A stretch of DNA of 36,704 bases, taken from Fibrobacter sp. (GTDB taxonomy: Bacteria; Fibrobacterota; Fibrobacteria; Fibrobacterales; Fibrobacteraceae). Shown in pieces: positions 15,999 to 36,704 of this stretch (positions are counted from its first letter, which is position 1; each line of letters begins with the position of its first letter). Both the position numbers and the translations under genes were made by a program. The stretch covers positions 1 to 36,704 of the forward strand of contig JAISUZ010000012.1 in assembly GCA_031271785.1 (NCBI GenBank). The letters run 5' to 3'. Under the pieces are notes generated by a model. It was not told where the DNA came from, made no database searches, and was given only the letters and a program-made list of their open reading frames with translations.

Positions 15999-17294
15999 TT
16001 AGAGCCCTACTTGCAAATGGTTCAACAAGTTTTCCCGGGAGAAAATACCGGCGTAATCCAAAAGGATAAAGAAACGTGAGTAAATTTCATATTCAAGGCG
16101 CACTTGCTTTAGCGTACTTTCGAGCGCGACTTCCCGGGCGCGCAAAAGGAGCAGAGGATCCGAGCCCGCATTCATTGCAAAATCCTGAAAAAGCTGGCCG
16201 GCATCTACTTCCCGTACAAATTCTTTTTGAATATTCCGCTGCGCAATAATCGCCGCCATTTCTTCGCGAATCCGCGCCGCTTTCTGGGTTAAGTCCCGCC
16301 GAACTTCGAGGTAATCGCTTTCATCGTCCAAAACGGAAATCTGGCGCCTCATATCGCCGTCGCTGTTATCGGTAAACCACGGCAGTTTAAGCGCGAGGTT
16401 GATATAGAATTTGTCGATCAGGCGGCGGTCATCTTCCGAGCGTATCAAAATCCATTCTTTCTCGGAATAAGAACCCGGTACATACTCCCACTTGTATTTT
16501 TTCTCCGCAATCACATGTTTATAACCGAAACCGATGTATGAAAACATATCGTTATCCGTAGCGCTTTCCTGATGATAACGTTTCTCGGAAGCATTCCACT
16601 TGCTTTTCGCCTGTGCAATCTGCGGATAAGCGGAATCGGGAGAAGAGGCTTCTTTCAGAAACTTCTCAATTTGTTCTATGGAAGGAAGCCAGGCCGAATC
16701 CAGTTGAATTTGATCGAACTCCGGAATCCAGGAACGAAACTTCATTTCAATGTCCAAAAGCGCATTGCTGTCCGCCACGAGTGCCGCCGAAATTTCAGCT
16801 TCCCGCTCCCGCGCGGAAATTAAACTTTGCAAATCAAAACCTTCCGCTCCGCTTTTCATGCGAAGCACTTCTATCCGGTCTTTATTGACTTGAAACAACT
16901 CGCGGTTGATTTTCTGAATGCGCTCTTGAATCACAAAACGAAGCCCGCGCTCATAACGTTCATACATAATGTAAGAACGGTCCACCGCTTTCCGCGCTTT
17001 CTGGTAAGTCTCCATAGCGTCCCAATATTCCGAGGTCGCCTTTGTTTCTCCCCACGGATTCGGTTTTAAACGAAGTTCAAAATCGTGTTCCAAAAACCCC
17101 AAACCGTTCAGTTGGTAGCGAAACTCCAAATCATCCCACAACTTGGTAGAAGCCCCCTGGCTCACCGAATTAATACGGCGATCCGCGGCGTTCAACACCG
17201 GATCGTCATTGACGGAACCGATCAATGTTTCCCACGTCAGCGAGGAGCCAAAAGAAAGTACGGCAAAAAGCAGAATAGTCCACAAAATTTTCAT
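15999..17294 (-). CDS. TolC-like outer-membrane factor
   Basis: Protein of 431 residues with a signal peptide (MKILWTILLFAVLSFGSS) and long helical segments resembling outer-membrane efflux (TolC/OEP) proteins: about 85-175 (YWDAMETYQKARKAVDRSY, ERIQKINRELFQVNKDRIE) and about 310-420 (DYLEVRRDLTQKAARIREE, REVALESTLKQVRLEYEI). The two helical halves around a central polar part fit a TolC-type hairpin layout, but similarity is low and it is shorter than many members. It sits directly after the HlyD-like gene (4-base overlap), as expected for an adaptor/outer-membrane pair. It would form the outer-membrane channel of the unit. An alternative is a periplasmic coiled-coil protein. Confidence 0.7.
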   Translation of the reverse strand: MKILWTILLFAVLSFGSSLTWETLIGSVNDDPVLNAADRRINSVSQGASTKLWDDLEFRYQLNGLGFLEHDFELRLKPNPWGETKATSEYWDAMETYQKARKAVDRSYIMYERYERGLRFVIQERIQKINRELFQVNKDRIEVLRMKSGAEGFDLQSLISAREREAEISAALVADSNALLDIEMKFRSWIPEFDQIQLDSAWLPSIEQIEKFLKEASSPDSAYPQIAQAKSKWNASEKRYHQESATDNDMFSYIGFGYKHVIAEKKYKWEYVPGSYSEKEWILIRSEDDRRLIDKFYINLALKLPWFTDNSDGDMRRQISVLDDESDYLEVRRDLTQKAARIREEMAAIIAQRNIQKEFVREVDAGQLFQDFAMNAGSDPLLLLRAREVALESTLKQVRLEYEIYSRFFILLDYAGIFSRENLLNHLQVGL

Positions 17295-28940: not shown

Positions 28941-29339
28941 TTAAAATTTTACCGTTTTAGGCTCGCCTGAAAAAGAATTAAATGTTGCCGCGGCCTCTTT
29001 CAGGAAAAGAACCAAAGTATTATCGTCTGCCGCGGAATACATGGATTTCAATGACGGATACTGATCCAGCATAAATTGCTTCGCTTCAATGCGTTCATCG
29101 GGCACCACAATCGCGGAAATTCGTAACCATACGCCATTAGCCTTGTCATAAGCACAAATTTCGATTTTCGGATTTGCCGCTATTTGCCTGGCTACATTTT
29201 TGCGCTTTCCCGTTTGAATATACAGCTTATTTTCAAAAATAACCGCCGTACCGAACGGACGAACACGCGGCTGATCGCCTTCAACGGTCGCGATAAAATA
29301 ATCACCGCATTGCTTGAGAAACTCATAGACTTCTTTCAC
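28941..29339 (-). CDS. Pyridoxamine 5'-phosphate oxidase-like flavin protein
   Basis: Protein of 132 residues with the split-barrel FMN-binding fold of the PNPOx-like family. Features: YFIATVEGDQPRVRPFG (about 14-30), KLYIQTGKRKNVARQIAANPKIEI and a C-terminal strand rich in Phe. Small stand-alone members are often FMN- or F420-binding reductases or general stress proteins, so real pyridoxamine oxidase activity should not be assumed. The start is GTG at 29339, with GGAG 7 bases upstream. First gene of the unit with the methyltransferase. Confidence 0.9.
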   Translation of the reverse strand: MKEVYEFLKQCGDYFIATVEGDQPRVRPFGTAVIFENKLYIQTGKRKNVARQIAANPKIEICAYDKANGVWLRISAIVVPDERIEAKQFMLDQYPSLKSMYSAADDNTLVLFLKEAAATFNSFSGEPKTVKF

Positions 29340-29418
29340 GGATGACTCCTCTTCAGGTGTGGTTTGTAAAACATATATAATGTTGTGACTTTATCATTAA
29401 ACGATGACTCTCGGATCG

Positions 29419-29446
29419 TTGGAAATGGGGGGGATTAATCTATATT
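29419..29446 (+). promoter_or_regulatory. Predicted promoter, -10 inside a CRISPR-repeat fragment
   Basis: TTGGAA (29419-29424), 16 bases, then TATATT (29441-29446). The TATATT belongs to the 22-base CRISPR-repeat fragment at 29440-29461. Transcription would begin near 29453, inside the fragment, and run into the 115-aa gene. The same TATATT hexamer serves as -10 in the tracrRNA promoter and occurs in every repeat. Prediction only. Confidence 0.4.
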
Positions 29447-29461
29447 AGGATTGTTTACAAC
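29440..29461 (+). repeat. Orphan 3' fragment of the CRISPR repeat
   Basis: Exact match to repeat positions 26-47 (begins CTATATTAGG, ends GTTTACAAC), lying 1.23 kb left of the array and in the same orientation. The 5' half, which would pair with the tracrRNA, is absent; only a 7-base GTTGTGA at 29382 recalls it, probably by chance. The fragment cannot act as an ordinary type II guide repeat. It sits 17 bases before the start codon of the 115-aa gene. Confidence 0.9.
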
Positions 29462-29478
29462 CACAGGAGATAAATAAG

Positions 29479-29826
29479 ATGAATCAGACTACATTATTGC
29501 TCAACAACACATTGTTTGCCCGGTGGAACAGTGTGAAAATCGACACAAGTATAACCACCGATTCGGTCGGTGTGCAAACCGTACTGCTCGCTGTTTGGGT
29601 GGACGGGGTAAAGGCGCATCCCGAGTACTACGACTGTGCTACGCTGCAGACGTCCCCGGAACCGTTCTCGAATATCAAAAGGGCGCTTGACGATTATGTA
29701 GCAGAGGGCATTTACAACACCGTTGTGGGCAACGCCGTTACGGGATCCTACAGAGCAGTCACAGCGGACAACCTTATAACAGCTGTTCGCAATAAACTCT
29801 TGAAATTGAACTTCACCATTATATAG
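29479..29826 (+). CDS. Uncharacterised protein next to the CRISPR array
   Basis: Predicted protein of 115 residues; family not recognised. It looks like a small globular alpha/beta protein, with strands near 18-27 (VKIDTSITTD) and 31-43 (VQTVLLAVWVDGV) and helices near 62-75 (NIKRALDDYVAEG) and 95-110. No signal peptide, membrane segment or helix-turn-helix. The start is ATG behind AGGAG (29465-29469), just downstream of the CRISPR-repeat fragment. Its stop TAG overlaps the AGGAGG that serves the DUF805-like gene, so the two are co-translated. Position by the array suggests, without proof, a link to CRISPR or to a cargo insertion. Confidence 0.72.
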   Translation: MNQTTLLLNNTLFARWNSVKIDTSITTDSVGVQTVLLAVWVDGVKAHPEYYDCATLQTSPEPFSNIKRALDDYVAEGIYNTVVGNAVTGSYRAVTADNLITAVRNKLLKLNFTII

Positions 29827-29839
29827 GAGGGGTAAAAGG

Positions 29840-30685
29840 ATTACAGCATTTTTCAACCTGTTTAGATGGACAACCCGTGGGCGTGATACCCGCAACGAGG
29901 TACTGTGGTTCGCTATACTAACGAACCTGGTGAGCTGGGGGATGTTTGCCGTTGTAATGCTTACCGAGTATGAGAATACGGATCTTGCATTCAGTATTGT
30001 GGGGATCCCATTCGGGATAGCAACCTTGTTCATGTACGCCCGGCGTTACCGGGATATTGTGGGTGAAGAGAGTTACGCGCTTATGGGCATCGGCGGTCAC
30101 TTGTGGCGCATACTTTTGGTGATTATAAGCGCTATGCTGTCGTGCGGACTGCTGCCCTTACTGTACTTCGGGCTGTACCGCGGCGAAAGCGAAGAGGATC
30201 TGCACATGACCCCGGTAGTTATCTCCGGACTCATACTTACCGCATGGCTTGTGTTGTTTAGCGTGCTGTTTGAAAAGCAAACTAAACTTTTGGGGGACTA
30301 TGAAGCCGTACTGGGGATGGAAACGGAGGCGGAAGCGCTTGTGCGCTCGGACATACGCACCTACAAACAATACCGCGCCGTATTTCACAGTAAGTCCATG
30401 CCCGAGCTGGCATTTAGTAACTTTGCGGCTATGGAGTTGAAGTGCCGCAAAGTGGCGGAAAATGAACGTGCAATGGGTTGCGTTCAGGAGTTGATGCGTA
30501 CGTTTCAGCCTTATGCTGTTGTGGATTCCGCATTCCCGCAGCTGGATCACGCCAATAAGAGTGAGTACTCCGAATTTTGGCAATTCCTCATTGAATCTGG
30601 GCATTACTATTATATAGTTACGGAGGAAGATGGGGTTACATTTACTTTAGATTATTTTGAAGAAATACTTGACAACGGACAGTAA
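29840..30685 (+). CDS. DUF805-like membrane protein with probable ATT start
   Basis: Reading from an ATT at 29840 gives 281 residues beginning ITAFFNLFRWTTRGRDTRNE. The F-x-GR-x2-R-x-E-type pattern followed by a hydrophobic segment is typical of DUF805 proteins. AGGAGG (29825-29830) lies 9 bases upstream of the ATT, and no ATG, GTG or TTG lies closer. The first GTG (29930) would delete the conserved motif and cut the first membrane segment. Four hydrophobic segments follow (about 20-42, 48-66, 88-110 and 124-145), then a soluble C-terminal half of about 130 residues. Function of the family is unknown. The stop lies 8 bases before the first CRISPR repeat, so read-through would enter the array. 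Confidence 0.7.
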   Translation: MTAFFNLFRWTTRGRDTRNEVLWFAILTNLVSWGMFAVVMLTEYENTDLAFSIVGIPFGIATLFMYARRYRDIVGEESYALMGIGGHLWRILLVIISAMLSCGLLPLLYFGLYRGESEEDLHMTPVVISGLILTAWLVLFSVLFEKQTKLLGDYEAVLGMETEAEALVRSDIRTYKQYRAVFHSKSMPELAFSNFAAMELKCRKVAENERAMGCVQELMRTFQPYAVVDSAFPQLDHANKSEYSEFWQFLIESGHYYYIVTEEDGVTFTLDYFEEILDNGQ

Positions 30686-30693
30686 ATGTGATA

Positions 30694-32356
30694 GTTGTGA
30701 ATTGCTTTCAGTATTTTCCTATATTAGGATTGTTTACAACAGATTAGCGCGTATGTGGAGTACATCTCGAGTTGTGAATTGCTTTCAGTATTTTCCTATA
30801 TTAGGATTGTTTACAACGCGGCAATGAGTTTATCAAGCGTGTAAGAAGTTGTGAATTGCTTTCAGTATTTTCCTATATTAGGATTGTTTACAACACGGAA
30901 GAAGTGAAACCTCTTCGTGATTCAGTTGTGAATTGCTTTCAGTATTTTCCTATATTAGGATTGTTTACAACATCTTGGCTCCCTTTTGCATAATGGCGAA
31001 TGTTGTGAATTGCTTTCAGTATTTTCCTATATTAGGATTGTTTACAACATCAGAAAGAAACACAGGAACATCCCAGTAGTTGTGAATTGCTTTCAGTATT
31101 TTCCTATATTAGGATTGTTTACAACTTTGTCCTTTTTTCCCAAGCGATTATACCAGTTGTGAATTGCTTTCAGTATTTTCCTATATTAGGATTGTTTACA
31201 ACCTTGGTTAATCTTCGAATGCTGGTAACCGGGTTGTGAATTGCTTTCAGTATTTTCCTATATTAGGATTGTTTACAACGCTTCTATTGCTGCGAATACC
31301 CGGCTGACGGTTGTGAATTGCTTTCAGTATTTTCCTATATTAGGATTGTTTACAACCCGTCGATAACTTACTAGTCAACGGCTAACGTTGTGAATTGCTT
31401 TCAGTATTTTCCTATATTAGGATTGTTTACAACATTAGAAGTATCACCAAATTGTAATACATCGTTGTGAATTGCTTTCAGTATTTTCCTATATTAGGAT
31501 TGTTTACAACATTCAACCTTTTCCTTAAATTAATTCATCTGTTGTGAATTGCTTTCAGTATTTTCCTATATTAGGATTGTTTACAACAATACGGCGAGTG
31601 TAGCCGTGGACTCCGGAGTTGTGAATTGCTTTCAGTATTTTCCTATATTAGGATTGTTTACAACAAGTCATAGAAAATACAAAGAATATTAAAGGTTGTG
31701 AATTGCTTTCAGTATTTTCCTATATTAGGATTGTTTACAACTTTCATCCGTTTTATTCATGACAAGCGAAGGTTGTGAATTGCTTTCAGTATTTTCCTAT
31801 ATTAGGATTGTTTACAACCATCCTCCGTGTGGCTTCAGAAAAAAGGATGTTGTGAATTGCTTTCAGTATTTTCCTATATTAGGATTGTTTACAACGAACT
31901 TGAATAGGGATGGTGGATTGGCCAAGTTGTGAATTGCTTTCAGTATTTTCCTATATTAGGATTGTTTACAACCGACATAATCCGGTATGTCGCGGAATTG
32001 CGGTTGTGAATTGCTTTCAGTATTTTCCTATATTAGGATTGTTTACAACGATGCGGAACCGAGTTAACAACAAAATACTGTTGTGAATTGCTTTCAGTAT
32101 TTTCCTATATTAGGATTGTTTACAACTTATGGCTTTTGTTAATTACATACAAAGTAGTTGTGAATTGCTTTCAGTATTTTCCTATATTAGGATTGTTTAC
32201 AACGCTACAAAAAAAGATTTCTTGCGAAATTAGTTGTGAATTGCTTTCAGTATTTTCCTATATTAGGATTGTTTACAACTTATGAGCTGGGGAGACCTCG
32301 ATGAGAATGGTTGTGAATTGCTTTCAGTATTTTCCTATATTAGGATTGTTTACAAC
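30694..32356 (+). CRISPR. Type II-C CRISPR array, 22 repeats, 21 spacers
   Basis: The 47-base repeat begins GTTGTGAATTGCTTTCAG, has the inner palindrome TCCTATATTAGGA and ends TTGTTTACAAC. All 22 copies appear identical. Spacers are 30 bases except the twentieth (32204-32232), which is 29. crRNA direction is plus: repeat positions 2-23 match the anti-repeat of the minus-strand tracrRNA, and type II guides keep the 5' part of the repeat. No degenerate end repeat and no usual AT-rich leader is seen on the left, where a coding region ends 8 bases before repeat 1. A strong terminator (32412-32451) follows the array. No spacer matches another part of this window that I could find. Confidence 0.98.
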
Positions 32357-32411
32357 ATTACGCTTGTAACTTCCCTAATTTGAACCACTTATGGCGGTTC
32401 GCAGGAAATGA

Positions 32412-32451
32412 AAAAGAACGGATTTTGGGTAATTCTAAAATCCGTTCTTTT
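32412..32451 (+). terminator. Strong terminator after the CRISPR array
   Basis: A perfect 15-bp stem: AAAAGAACGGATTTT (32412-32426) pairs with AAAATCCGTTCTTTT (32437-32451), with a 10-base loop and a T-rich tail (ATTTT). It lies 56 bases past the last repeat and would end plus-strand pre-crRNA. With A-runs on both sides it could also work from the minus strand, insulating the array from tracrRNA transcription. Confidence 0.85.
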
Positions 32452-32479
32452 ATTTTAAAGTTTGTATTGCTAGTAAAAG

Positions 32480-32557
32480 AAAAAACCCCGGAGATAGCCG
32501 AGGCACTAAATGTTTTCACAACGGAATAATCCTTATTGTGAATTGCTTTCAGTATTT
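32480..32557 (-). ncRNA. tracrRNA of the type II-C system
   Basis: On the minus strand the order is: anti-repeat AAATACTGAAAGCAATTCAC... (32557-32536), complementary without mismatch to repeat positions 2-23; linker TAA; nexus hairpin GGA-TTAT-TCC (32533-32524), which can extend with TTCACAA pairing TTGTGAA; GAAAACATTTAGTG; and the terminator CCTCGG-CTATCT-CCGGGG (32503-32486) followed by six Ts (32485-32480). Length about 78 bases. The GGA...TCCG nexus right after the anti-repeat is typical of type II-C tracrRNAs. A predicted promoter places the start at the anti-repeat edge. Confidence 0.88.
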
Positions 32558-32563
32558 ATAAGT

Positions 32564-32593
32564 AATATAGAATTCAAAGACACTTTATGCCAA
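32564..32593 (-). promoter_or_regulatory. tracrRNA promoter
   Basis: On the minus strand TTGGCA (32593-32588), 18 bases, then TATATT (32569-32564). Each hexamer has one mismatch to the sigma-70 consensus. Initiation about seven bases downstream falls at 32557, the first base of the anti-repeat. It fits the short sigma-70-type regulator of the host. Confidence 0.65.
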
Positions 32594-32629
32594 ACTTTTT
32601 TTGAAAAAATCGTAATAAATTGAAAAAAT

Positions 32630-32968
32630 TCAGAACATTTCCAACTGAACGGAGCCCAGCGGTGGGAGAGTATCTTTATTACCGTAAAAAATCTGCATAT
32701 CACCGAATTGTTTGTCCGTAAGGTGCAAAATACAAACCTTACCGCCCGGCTGTAAAAATTTTCTCACTCGCTCCACATGGACGCTCATGTTTTCTTTGCT
32801 CGCGCAATGCCGCCAATAAACGGAAAGTTGCCCCATCACAAAGCCATCCTTGAGGAGGTCTTTCCTGAATTGAGCGTGCCGTCGCTTATCTTCCTTGGTT
32901 TCGGTCGGCAAATCAAAAAATACCATGATCCACATAACTCGATACTGATTAAGTGCATTCTGTTTCAT
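32630..32968 (-). CDS. cas2: CRISPR-associated protein Cas2
   Basis: Adaptation protein of 112 residues, partner of Cas1 in spacer integration. The first strand RVMWIMVFFDLP (10-21) carries the conserved Asp; then TKEDKRRHAQFRKDLLKDGFV and QLSVYWRHC fit the type II Cas2 ferredoxin-like fold. The start is the ATG at 32968 (MKQNALNQYR); the frame open to 33007 lies in cas1 and adds nothing typical. It overlaps the cas1 end by 20 bases, so they are coupled. No cas4 or csn2 follows, in line with type II-C. Confidence 0.95.
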   Translation of the reverse strand: MKQNALNQYRVMWIMVFFDLPTETKEDKRRHAQFRKDLLKDGFVMGQLSVYWRHCASKENMSVHVERVRKFLQPGGKVCILHLTDKQFGDMQIFYGNKDTLPPLGSVQLEMF

Positions 32969-33854
32969 AAATTCTCGGGTACAAGAGTTTCTTCTTTTTC
33001 CCTTCAAAGCACGCCACTAAAGAGGCGGAAGTTCGCGAAAGAGCCACAAGCATAGGGCTTTTTTCTTTTTCAAAACGACAATCGAAAGCAAGAATACCCA
33101 GTAAATGTTTTTTTATTTCAGGGGTCAGTTCATTACTCCGATTTGCCGAAAAAATTTCCCGCACCGCCATATCCACATAAGGACGATAAGGTTCCATAAT
33201 GTCGTCGGCAAGGCAATAAGCATTATATTGGTTCCTATGAAAAATTCCGAGTGTAGGCAAGAGTCCGGAGCCCACAAGCGCGCGGGCAGTAGCAGCACGC
33301 AGAATAGCATAGCCGTAATTGAGTAAATGATTAGGCGAATTGCCTTCGGGCGAACGCGAAAAGCCGTTAATGAAATCTTCAAAAATCAATTTCCAGTAAT
33401 AACTCGCAGCTTGAGCTTCGCAATTATTGGTATCGCCGCTATTCACCGTTTTGGCAAGGTATTCCATTCGTTTCACATCCTTACCAAGATGCCTTAAAAC
33501 AGCGGATTGATTTTGAATTTTAGCTTGCACTGTTTGCAACCAAAGTTGTTTTTTAAGCGGCTCACTCGCTTCGATCTGTTTTTGAAAACGATTACTTTGC
33601 AATGTATTTCCATCCAAATTCAAAAACATACCGACCGGCAAATGCTTTGAATCGGTAGTGATAATCACCGCATTATTTTCAAGTAAAAGCGCCATTGCTC
33701 GCTGAGTAATGGTAATTTGCGGATTATCTAAAATAATCACCCCAATATCTTCAATCGGGCGCGTGATTTCTCTTTCACTTGTCTTGATCACAAGCTGAAA
33801 GTCTTTCACACTCAGGTACGCCGGATTGGAGAAATTGAGGGTTTGTTTTATCAT
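32949..33854 (-). CDS. cas1: CRISPR-associated endonuclease Cas1 (type II)
   Basis: Integrase of 301 residues, normal for type II Cas1. The N-terminal beta domain has EDIGVIILDNPQITIT (35-50). In the helical domain the metal ligands are E146 (NNCEAQAASYYW), H206 (LGIFHRNQYN) and E221 or D217/D218 (LADDIMEPYRP). LLNYGYAILRAATARALV (177-194) is the usual conserved stretch. Nine bases separate it from the cas9 stop and it overlaps cas2, so cas9-cas1-cas2 is one operon. Confidence 0.97.
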   Translation of the reverse strand: MIKQTLNFSNPAYLSVKDFQLVIKTSEREITRPIEDIGVIILDNPQITITQRAMALLLENNAVIITTDSKHLPVGMFLNLDGNTLQSNRFQKQIEASEPLKKQLWLQTVQAKIQNQSAVLRHLGKDVKRMEYLAKTVNSGDTNNCEAQAASYYWKLIFEDFINGFSRSPEGNSPNHLLNYGYAILRAATARALVGSGLLPTLGIFHRNQYNAYCLADDIMEPYRPYVDMAVREIFSANRSNELTPEIKKHLLGILAFDCRFEKEKSPMLVALSRTSASLVACFEGKKKKLLYPRIYETECT

Positions 33855-33863
33855 GATAGATGA

Positions 33864-36704
33864 TTAAAATTGTGGAACAATCGTTATCGTCCCTAACCAA
33901 TCAATCTGTATTTTAATGCAACTATCTTGAATCTTCAAAGGCTTAGTACCTTTAAATTCTTTTTTTAAAACTAATTCTTTTATAAAATTTTCATTCACTT
34001 CGGTTTTGGCAGAAGTTCCAAATGAGCCAAATTCTTCATAATTTTTTTCCTGTTTAGGAATGGTTTTATCTTGATATTTTTCTTTTAATTTTTTCCTATC
34101 CTCTTCTGATAAATCTTTTGATACACTAATTGAATTTGCATAGTTATGAGGAATAAAGAAACAATCTTTACCAGAAAATTTTACAACCTTATAAACTTGT
34201 TTACAAAATGTCTTTTTATTTTCTTTATCTTGAATCCATTTCTCAAATTCACTATTTGACATTTTCAAAACAAAATCTTCAGAATCAGTAGGTAAATAAA
34301 CCAATTCATTTTGTTGAAGTATAAATAAAACTTTATCGGGTTTTTCTTTGTGTTTAACTCTAAAATCTTCGGCAATTTTTTGCTTGAAATTAGTGTTATT
34401 TTCTTTCAATGTGGCTTTTGCAATATCAACAGAATCATATAGAGAAGCAACATCAAAGATTCGTTTGCCGTTCTTTTCCATTATTAAAAACAAATAATTA
34501 TCTCCCGTGATAACGCTTTGTTTATCGTTGTTTTCATAAAGCTGTTGTAAAGAACTCTCTGTTGTTTCTTTTGTATTATACCAGACTTTTACTTTATAGA
34601 CAGGTGGTTTTAGTTTTTGCTCTTTTGTCTTCTTATCTACATAAAACCTATTTTCATTAAACATTTTCAAGCCTTCGCCGGTAAATGCCTCTTTCATAGA
34701 ATCGTATTTCCTTTTATGAGTTTCTATTTCTTCTGCTAACACATTTTGGTCTATAATTTTAGAAATGTCTTTTGCCGATAGTTTGGAAATATCTATTGTT
34801 TTTGTATCACGCCCAAGCGTTTTTCCGTAGTATGTCGCATCGTGCAATGCACCTCTGATTTTCAATTGCTTTTTATTGGTTTTATCATCAATTTTTATTC
34901 CTAATTTGTCTTTGGGTTTGATTGATACAACCATTGTTTCTAAATGTTCTCGAACTTGTTTTACCAAGTCCTGAATTGGTGTGTCAAATTTTCTTGAACT
35001 TTCAATTTGTCGCAGAATTTCATCTCGCCGCATTTCTTCTAAATTGAAAAATGCTTCTAAAATAGTTTCATCATCTTTTAAAACGATTTTAAACTCATCT
35101 TTTCTATTGGTTAATTCGTCTTGCAGATATTTATTCAAATTGTTAAGGCGTTGAATATGGCTTTGTTCTGTTAATGCAACAACTAAAGCATCAATAGCGT
35201 GGTGGCGGTGGTCGTAACGCTTGCTCCAATTTTTGATTTCGTAAATATGTTTTTGTTTTTCTTTATCGAAATATTTTTGGATCCATTCTGTTTTTGGATT
35301 GCCATTTTCGTCCAAATCCCAAAACGCCATTTGCCTGAAACGATTTTCTGTAAGTTCCATAAAGAGTTTTTTCAGTCCCCAACGGCTACGCAAAAAGTCC
35401 GTAACTTCTCCTGTACTTGTTTTTATATTTTCGCTTCCAACAATTTTTGCCAATTCATTTTTTACTGCAACAGAAATATATTGCGTATCTTTTAATTGTC
35501 GTTCAACAGGATTTGTGGGAATTTTCTCTGCTAATAAATTTTTCTTCTTTTTGCCGAAGAAATTATCATTAATATGTCCGACATAATCTTCAACAGAACG
35601 GATTGCTGAAGTTCCGTCTTCATTTTTGTATTTAGAATTTTGTCGTGTAATATATTCCCACGCAGTTTGATTGCTCTTTTCTTCATTAATATGAGTTTCA
35701 CAAACTACTTTATTTGAAAATGAGTCGTCATAATACCTTGATTTAGGAATAATGTGGTCAATATCATATTGTCTTTTGTCAAATAATGCTGCAAATGGAA
35801 TTATCTCTTTATTGGTATATGGCGACCTGTATTTTTGTTGCTCGTACAACCTATATTTGAGAATATTTTCATCAGTAATAGCAATATTATTTTCTTGCAA
35901 TCTTTCTTTTGCCTTATCATTTATTTTTTTGCTTTTTATTTGCCCTTTCCAAATTTTATCCCTTTCTTGCGCACTATTTTTTAAATCTCGTGCTAATTCT
36001 ACACGAATTTCCAAATCTTCGGGATTGATTTTGTGCTGTTTCCATATTGCTTTTATAACTTGCATTGTTTCGTTTGCAAGTTGTTCAACAATTGGATTAC
36101 GCAAGCTACGTTTTTCATATTTTATGTCGTGATAATTGGTAATTTGCGCTTTTATGGTTTCAGCGGTGTGTTTTCCATAAATCAATGAAATTGCCAAATA
36201 TTCCATTAAACCACCTATTTCCAAAATGTTTGGATTGCTTTGGACAAAGTCAATAACATATTCTTCTAAATTAATGATTTCGCCTGTTTCTGTATCAACA
36301 CTTTCGCCTTTACCTAATCTTTCAATGTTTTTTGCTATATAGTTGAATTTGGCATAAGTATGCTCTGAAATATTTTGCGGGTTAAGTTGCATCAATGGCA
36401 AAATATTCCTAATAGCTTTAGCCGAAAGACTTCCGTATTTACGAGGAAATTTTATATTTTGAGCTAATTTTAATGCTAATTCCGTTGCAGTTTCTTTATC
36501 AGTGTAATTTTGCAAAACTTCAATAATGGAAGACACTCGCATACTATTTGTATCATATTCACTCCCATCGTGATTTTTAACATCGTAAATTACACTCCAA
36601 ATCTTTTCTATCAGCTTTTCATCTTGCACGGTAAATGTATTGCCCAAAATCTTTTTGATAGAAATTTGAGTGTCGCAACCTGTTAACTTTGCTTTGACAT
36701 TCAA
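33864..36704 (-). CDS. cas9: Cas9 endonuclease, type II-C (5' part beyond window)
   Basis: The C-terminal 946 codons of Cas9; the frame runs off the right edge, so RuvC-I, the bridge helix and part of the recognition lobe lie outside. Visible parts, numbered from the edge: recognition-lobe helices (1-225); RuvC-II with E236 (IRVELARDLKN); HNH domain with DIDHIIPKS (315-322, D316/H317) and N331 (DSFSNKVV); RuvC-III with H502 and D505 (RYDHRHHAIDALVVAL); then the wedge/PAM-interacting region to the end. All visible catalytic residues are present. Size and motifs fit the large Bacteroidota-type II-C Cas9, usually 1400-1500 residues. It is markedly AT-rich compared with the left part of the window, which suggests transfer. 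Confidence 0.96.
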   Translation of the reverse strand: MNVKAKLTGCDTQISIKKILGNTFTVQDEKLIEKIWSVIYDVKNHDGSEYDTNSMRVSSIIEVLQNYTDKETATELALKLAQNIKFPRKYGSLSAKAIRNILPLMQLNPQNISEHTYAKFNYIAKNIERLGKGESVDTETGEIINLEEYVIDFVQSNPNILEIGGLMEYLAISLIYGKHTAETIKAQITNYHDIKYEKRSLRNPIVEQLANETMQVIKAIWKQHKINPEDLEIRVELARDLKNSAQERDKIWKGQIKSKKINDKAKERLQENNIAITDENILKYRLYEQQKYRSPYTNKEIIPFAALFDKRQYDIDHIIPKSRYYDDSFSNKVVCETHINEEKSNQTAWEYITRQNSKYKNEDGTSAIRSVEDYVGHINDNFFGKKKKNLLAEKIPTNPVERQLKDTQYISVAVKNELAKIVGSENIKTSTGEVTDFLRSRWGLKKLFMELTENRFRQMAFWDLDENGNPKTEWIQKYFDKEKQKHIYEIKNWSKRYDHRHHAIDALVVALTEQSHIQRLNNLNKYLQDELTNRKDEFKIVLKDDETILEAFFNLEEMRRDEILRQIESSRKFDTPIQDLVKQVREHLETMVVSIKPKDKLGIKIDDKTNKKQLKIRGALHDATYYGKTLGRDTKTIDISKLSAKDISKIIDQNVLAEEIETHKRKYDSMKEAFTGEGLKMFNENRFYVDKKTKEQKLKPPVYKVKVWYNTKETTESSLQQLYENNDKQSVITGDNYLFLIMEKNGKRIFDVASLYDSVDIAKATLKENNTNFKQKIAEDFRVKHKEKPDKVLFILQQNELVYLPTDSEDFVLKMSNSEFEKWIQDKENKKTFCKQVYKVVKFSGKDCFFIPHNYANSISVSKDLSEEDRKKLKEKYQDKTIPKQEKNYEEFGSFGTSAKTEVNENFIKELVLKKEFKGTKPLKIQDSCIKIQIDWLGTITIVPQF

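Follow-up and report, generated by a model that had tools for sequence, protein, structure and literature searches.

A probable foreign two-gene operon in the oldest spacer slot of a Fibrobacter type II-C CRISPR array

Architecture of the locus

The window analysed here, a stretch of 36,704 nucleotides from Fibrobacter sp. (contig JAISUZ010000012.1), ends in a CRISPR-cas locus. Direct reading and a repeat search delineate an array of 22 identical 47-nt repeats and 21 spacers on the plus strand (30694-32356); the spacers are 30 nt long, save one of 29 nt. To its right, on the minus strand, lie a tracrRNA (32410-32560) with a 22-nt exact anti-repeat at 32536-32557 and a terminator hairpin at about 32411-32455, cas2 (32630-33007; PF09827, TIGR01573), a type II cas1 (32949-33854; TIGR03639, 305 bits) and a cas9 that is cut by the contig end (33864-36704; TIGR01865, E 5e-80). 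The tracrRNA stands alone between cas2 and the array, with neither csn2 nor cas4 there; for this gene-content test, the far side of cas9 lies off the contig. Gene content, together with an acquisition end that lies downstream when the array is read in the crRNA sense (see below), identifies the locus, on sequence criteria, as type II-C.

On the other side of the array, a copy of repeat positions 26-47 at 29440-29461 is followed after 17 nt by ORF1 (29479-29826, 115 aa) and then by ORF2 (29840-30685, about 281 aa), whose end is separated from the first full repeat by 8 nt; all three are on the plus strand. The earlier note had described a perfect 22-base repeat fragment 17 bases before a 115-aa gene, right to the base, and a DUF805-like gene ending 8 bases before the first full repeat, likewise correctly. 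The 1232 nt on the plus strand from 29462 to 30693, referred to below as the insert, lie exactly between the half-repeat and the first full repeat. No second copy of the insert was found in the genome, the array spacers showed no self-targeting of the insert, and an Rfam search of 29300-32700 gave no match.

Polarity of the array

Relatives of the window Cas1 are encoded in 31 further genomes of the phylum, and a Cas1-seeded scan returned 80 loci, nearly all from Bacteroidota. The three closest arrays belong to the genomes G034 (Candidatus Fibrimonas termitidis), G026 and G023, with Cas1 identities to the window of 80%, 78% and 76%, respectively. In these three and in the window, the 55 nt that separate the tracrRNA from the array (32357-32411, minus strand) are conserved, 37 of 55 columns being invariant, and the block reaches the repeat nearest cas2 without a gap; in all four loci, with the window taken on its reverse strand, CTCAAATTAGG-AAGTTACAAGC immediately adjoins the array. 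Comparison of the gene-side flank of the array with the relatives revealed no conserved flank there, and thus nothing that resembles a CRISPR leader. Because the conserved block abuts the cas2-side repeat and the gene-side flank is unconserved, the acquisition end is placed at 32357-32411, and since this leader sits on the right, beside the tracrRNA and cas2, the left, gene-side end is the oldest. Judging from these alignments, the type II-C array is read on the plus strand with its leader right and its oldest end left. The suggestion in the earlier note that the gene pair occupies the place expected of a leader does not hold, as the leader is found instead at the cas2/tracrRNA end, as usual in type II-C. 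These systems acquire spacers at the last repeat, carry promoters within their repeats and possess an oldest, 'extra' repeat that is mutated (PMC12080349).

The cas genes have a less uniform history. The window Cas9 is only about 35% identical to the Cas9 of G034, G026 and G023, as opposed to 76-80% for Cas1 (window 32949-36704), while the nearest Cas9, that of the genome G112, is 60% identical and is accompanied by a Cas1 of 57%; these identities suggest a shuffling between the adaptation module and Cas9. The G112 array (locus L030, 8076-9136) contains two repeat variants that share the tracr-pairing half, one present in nine copies near cas2 and the other in five at the old end.

A displaced terminal repeat

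Repeat positions 26-47 recur exactly once more to the left of the array (E = 7e-8 in the repeat search), where about 1e-7 exact 22-mers would be expected by chance. In 13 related type II-C arrays a truncated repeat lies 29-30 nt beyond the last full repeat and has kept the same half, with 19-22 of 22 leader-side and 4-15 of 22 tracr-side positions retained. These arrays are related, have their old end on the contig and were chosen because 16 or more leader-side positions matched at an offset of 29-31; because they were selected on leader-side match and offset, it is the loss of the tracr side that constitutes the independent fact, and the one-spacer distance of such fragments rests on a search without such restriction that covered 5 kb past each array. 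In G023, a close relative, the array is followed by a 30-nt spacer and then by 18 exact nt of the terminal repeat, with no genes between. The window fragment retains 22 of 22 leader-side and 7 of 22 tracr-side positions at an offset of 1232 nt, and its predicted duplex with the tracrRNA amounts to -9.8 kcal/mol compared with -32.7 kcal/mol for the full repeat.

In 60% of type II-C arrays the extra repeat is mutated, and the changes fall mainly within the first 15 nt (PMC12080349). The window fragment resembles them in missing the tracr-pairing half and departs from them in its distance, 1232 nt rather than 29-30, because the insert has displaced it. By its retained half and position, the 22-nt fragment is an ordinary decayed extra repeat of this array, moved outwards by 1232 nt. 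A truncated terminal repeat is a normal feature that prevents the production of a useless guide, and the earlier remark that the fragment cannot make a normal guide agrees with this type II-C biology (PMC12080349), the tracr-pairing half being absent.

Two other kinds of repeat irregularity were observed among the loci of the scan. In L076, L091, L111 and L114 internal repeats are split or altered mid-way such that their halves are separated by extra bases, and in L057 a 17-nt tracr-side repeat piece (16165-16181) lies 565 nt past the array end, which is the opposite half from that found in terminal repeats.

The two genes of the insert

The ATG of ORF1 is preceded at 9 nt by an AGGAG ribosome-binding site. 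For ORF2, the listed GTG start (29930) is too late, since the DUF805 hallmark F..RGR..R.E..WF is encoded upstream of it. The frame opens at an ATT codon (29840) after AGGAGG, with no ATG, GTG or TTG nearby before 29930, and this ATT is the probable start. An ATT behind a perfect AGGAGG (29840-29842) represents either an uncommon initiation codon or a mutated start codon. The same AGGAGG overlaps the ORF1 stop codon, an arrangement that suggests translational coupling of the two genes. ORF2 aligns with Pfam DUF805 over 102 of 111 positions with 14.4 bits, below the gathering cut-off of 25.7, and its hydropathy peaks near residues 20, 48, 90 and 125. It is predicted to be a membrane protein whose N-terminal part is DUF805-like with four helices and whose C-terminal part, about 130 aa long, is soluble; with the DUF805 membrane proteins (PF05656) it has in common the full-domain alignment and the F..RGR..R.E..WF motif, whereas the score under the family cut-off and the extra C-terminal domain set it apart.

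In both ORFs the codon score exceeds that of all their other frames and is lower than that of most window genes; at -0.011 for each, against a typical 0.1-0.2, it is similar to that of cas9 and a few other atypical genes. The GC content is 0.49 in the insert, 0.31 in cas9 and 0.44 in the window. This atypical codon usage is as would be expected for acquired genes. Single-sequence fold models (pLDDT 56 for ORF1 and 49 for ORF2) were too poor to use, and a Foldseek search with the poor ORF1 model found no match at E <= 0.001 in PDB or viral structures.

The earlier note had proposed looking for homologues repeatedly associated with type II-C loci; none came to light. Neither ORF1 nor ORF2 has a homologue in the relatives searched or in any of 168 phylum genomes, those that encode a Cas1 relative included; tblastn searches of phages and plasmids were negative for both; and pattern-seeded scans, which reach close relatives only, found none in viral contigs (both ORFs) or genome contigs (ORF2). 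A PDB sequence search returned nothing for ORF1 and chance-level matches only for ORF2. PADLOC, Pfam and NCBIfam assigned neither gene to an anti-CRISPR or known defence family, Pfam detected no recombinase in the two ORFs, and no clear duplication could be seen by eye at the borders.

A parallel in another array

Of the 44 arrays whose old end could be read, one besides that of the window has a displaced terminal repeat. This locus (L043) belongs to a metagenome genome, Chitinophagaceae bacterium ACE_NR_BACT11, in which 882 nt separate the array from a decayed repeat that retains 21 of 22 leader-side positions. The intervening DNA encodes a frameshifted HicA toxin homologue (69 bits with two frames read as one) and a 128-aa partner that is HicB-like by eye and was left unassigned by Pfam or NCBIfam; both genes point toward the array, as in the window. 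As in the window, a small two-gene operon is situated between a decayed terminal repeat and the array and is transcribed arrayward, but L043 contains a HicA homologue and the window genes are not hicAB. By this comparison, L043 is an independent parallel, and small two-gene operons can lodge, rarely, in the slot of the oldest spacer. The neighbours beyond the old ends of other type II-C arrays are mostly unrelated ordinary genes, for which reason recurrent cargo at old array ends was rejected. An apparent 2345-nt gap inside the array of L042 proved to be a run of N with no insert.

The array of Candidatus Fibrimonas termitidis (L037, 13840-16816, and also L039) presents a different junction. 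Here a 605-aa ORF without a family match follows directly after the last repeat, its stop codon lies inside the repeat, there is no recognisable terminal repeat, and further ORFs without known families extend up to the contig end. No viral relative of the array-abutting ORF was found, and the junction represents either a foreign element abutting the array or an assembly jump through a spacer.

Origin of the insert

The array anatomy, i.e. the leader side, the terminal repeat and the slot between this repeat and the next, is established at the sequence level, and the gene pair fills the slot of one 30-nt spacer. We consider it likely that a foreign two-gene operon was inserted between the terminal repeat and its neighbour at the leader-distal, oldest end. 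The operon, predicted to encode a soluble 115-aa protein and a four-helix DUF805-like membrane protein, would thereby have replaced or swallowed the oldest spacer, or else have taken the place of several repeat-spacer units. From the absence of relatives and the atypical codon usage we infer horizontal acquisition. The operon may be selfish or defence-like cargo, for example a toxin-antitoxin-like or membrane-acting pair, the fit to toxin-antitoxin systems lying in the coupled two-gene layout only. The genes are best read as passengers and not as working parts of CRISPR immunity. Two of the readings offered in the earlier note, decay of an old array end and insertion of cargo into the array, are thus right in combination: the oldest repeat survives in truncated form as the fragment, and the pair fills the oldest spacer slot between it and the first full repeat.

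A third reading, that these are accessory, regulatory or anti-CRISPR genes working with CRISPR and controlled by it, in the manner of a CreTA-like guard or an Acr, draws on the location beside the array and the possible promoter in the half-repeat, on the toxin-antitoxin-like pair in the same slot of L043 and on ParDE, which forms part of a type II-C locus in Flavobacterium columnare (PMC8092290). Neither homology nor recurrence supports it, since no other genome of the phylum carries either gene, even where a Cas1 relative is present, PADLOC, Pfam and NCBIfam give no assignment, and the old ends of type II-C arrays elsewhere are bordered mostly by ordinary genes; the half-repeat, moreover, lacks the tracr-pairing part that a CreA-like guide requires. 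Such a role is therefore improbable.

It is also conceivable that Cas1-Cas2 once integrated 1.2 kb of foreign DNA with two genes as an oversized oldest 'spacer', as an integration product would be located exactly between two intact repeat borders, and the last repeat of G034, too, is immediately followed by a long ORF on a stretch that appears foreign. All 21 other spacers, however, measure 29-30 nt, and the ends of the insert coincide with gene ends (17 nt with the ribosome-binding site before, 8 nt after), which would be rare for random capture; nor was a donor found in viral contigs, phages, plasmids or, for ORF2, genome contigs. We regard such an event as very unlikely, and its extension to an operon captured as a spacer and now expressed from a repeat-embedded promoter as slightly more so, even if, were it true, a type II-C array would be a gene-capture platform somewhat like an integron. 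Least credible of all is a metagenome contig that wrongly joins array, genes and flank. The draft genome comprises 112 contigs, arrays are difficult to assemble and the array-to-ORF junction in G034 is suspicious, but a single contig spans both borders of the insert, each of which carries the repeat to be expected there, the genome has one copy of the insert, and the fragment is the very half that other arrays retain at this end.

Transcription and a possible extraneous guide

The half-repeat retains a TATATT, and the flank provides TTGGAA at a distance of 16 nt. This tentative promoter-like element, TTGGAA-N16-TATATT (29419-29446, plus strand), has its -10 inside the repeat fragment and matches the consensus in 9 of 12 positions, while chance alone would give 2.9 such matches in this region. 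CRISPR-linked transcription from the half-repeat is thus possible, at a level of evidence not above chance. No terminator-like site was found on this strand between ORF2 and the array. It is possible that the operon mRNA starts in or near the -10-like TATATT, and transcription of the pair would then run on into the array and its first full repeat, because ORF2 is followed by 8 nt only and no terminator. The tracrRNA and RNase III would cut at this repeat, just behind the ORF2 stop codon, and a new extraneous crRNA would arise with the final 20-30 nt of ORF2 as its guide. In this way the insert would cancel the benefit of the truncated terminal repeat.

Implications and comparison with known systems

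If the inserted-operon reading is correct, foreign operons can be accommodated at the oldest, dead end of type II-C arrays. This end is not remodelled by acquisition, and its half-repeat may still promote inward transcription. The insert may even restore, from its own mRNA, the extraneous guide that the truncated repeat had abolished.

The closest known counterparts of the fragment are the mutated or truncated extra repeats of type II-C arrays (Feussner et al. 2025, PMC12080349). Like these, it is the oldest repeat, lies upstream in the crRNA sense and has lost the tracrRNA-pairing part; unlike these, it is 1232 nt off the array with two genes between. That survey took mutated repeats only 20-45 nt from the array (PMC12080349), and owing to this limit displaced repeats such as the one in the window escape it, as they do any search restricted to one-spacer distance.

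The CreTA guard modules (PMC9458426) similarly combine an ectopic degenerate repeat with small genes beside it. They operate, however, with type I effectors and a repeat-derived antitoxin RNA, whereas the window system is type II and its repeat half cannot pair with the tracrRNA; a repeat-derived guide RNA that silences a toxin via the effector, the defining property of CreTA, is not to be expected from a repeat without its tracr-pairing part and a type II effector. ParDE, which Flavobacterium columnare carries in its type II-C locus (PMC8092290), is like the window pair a two-gene module within a II-C locus, with the difference that it lies between cas9 and the array while the pair described here sits in a spacer slot.
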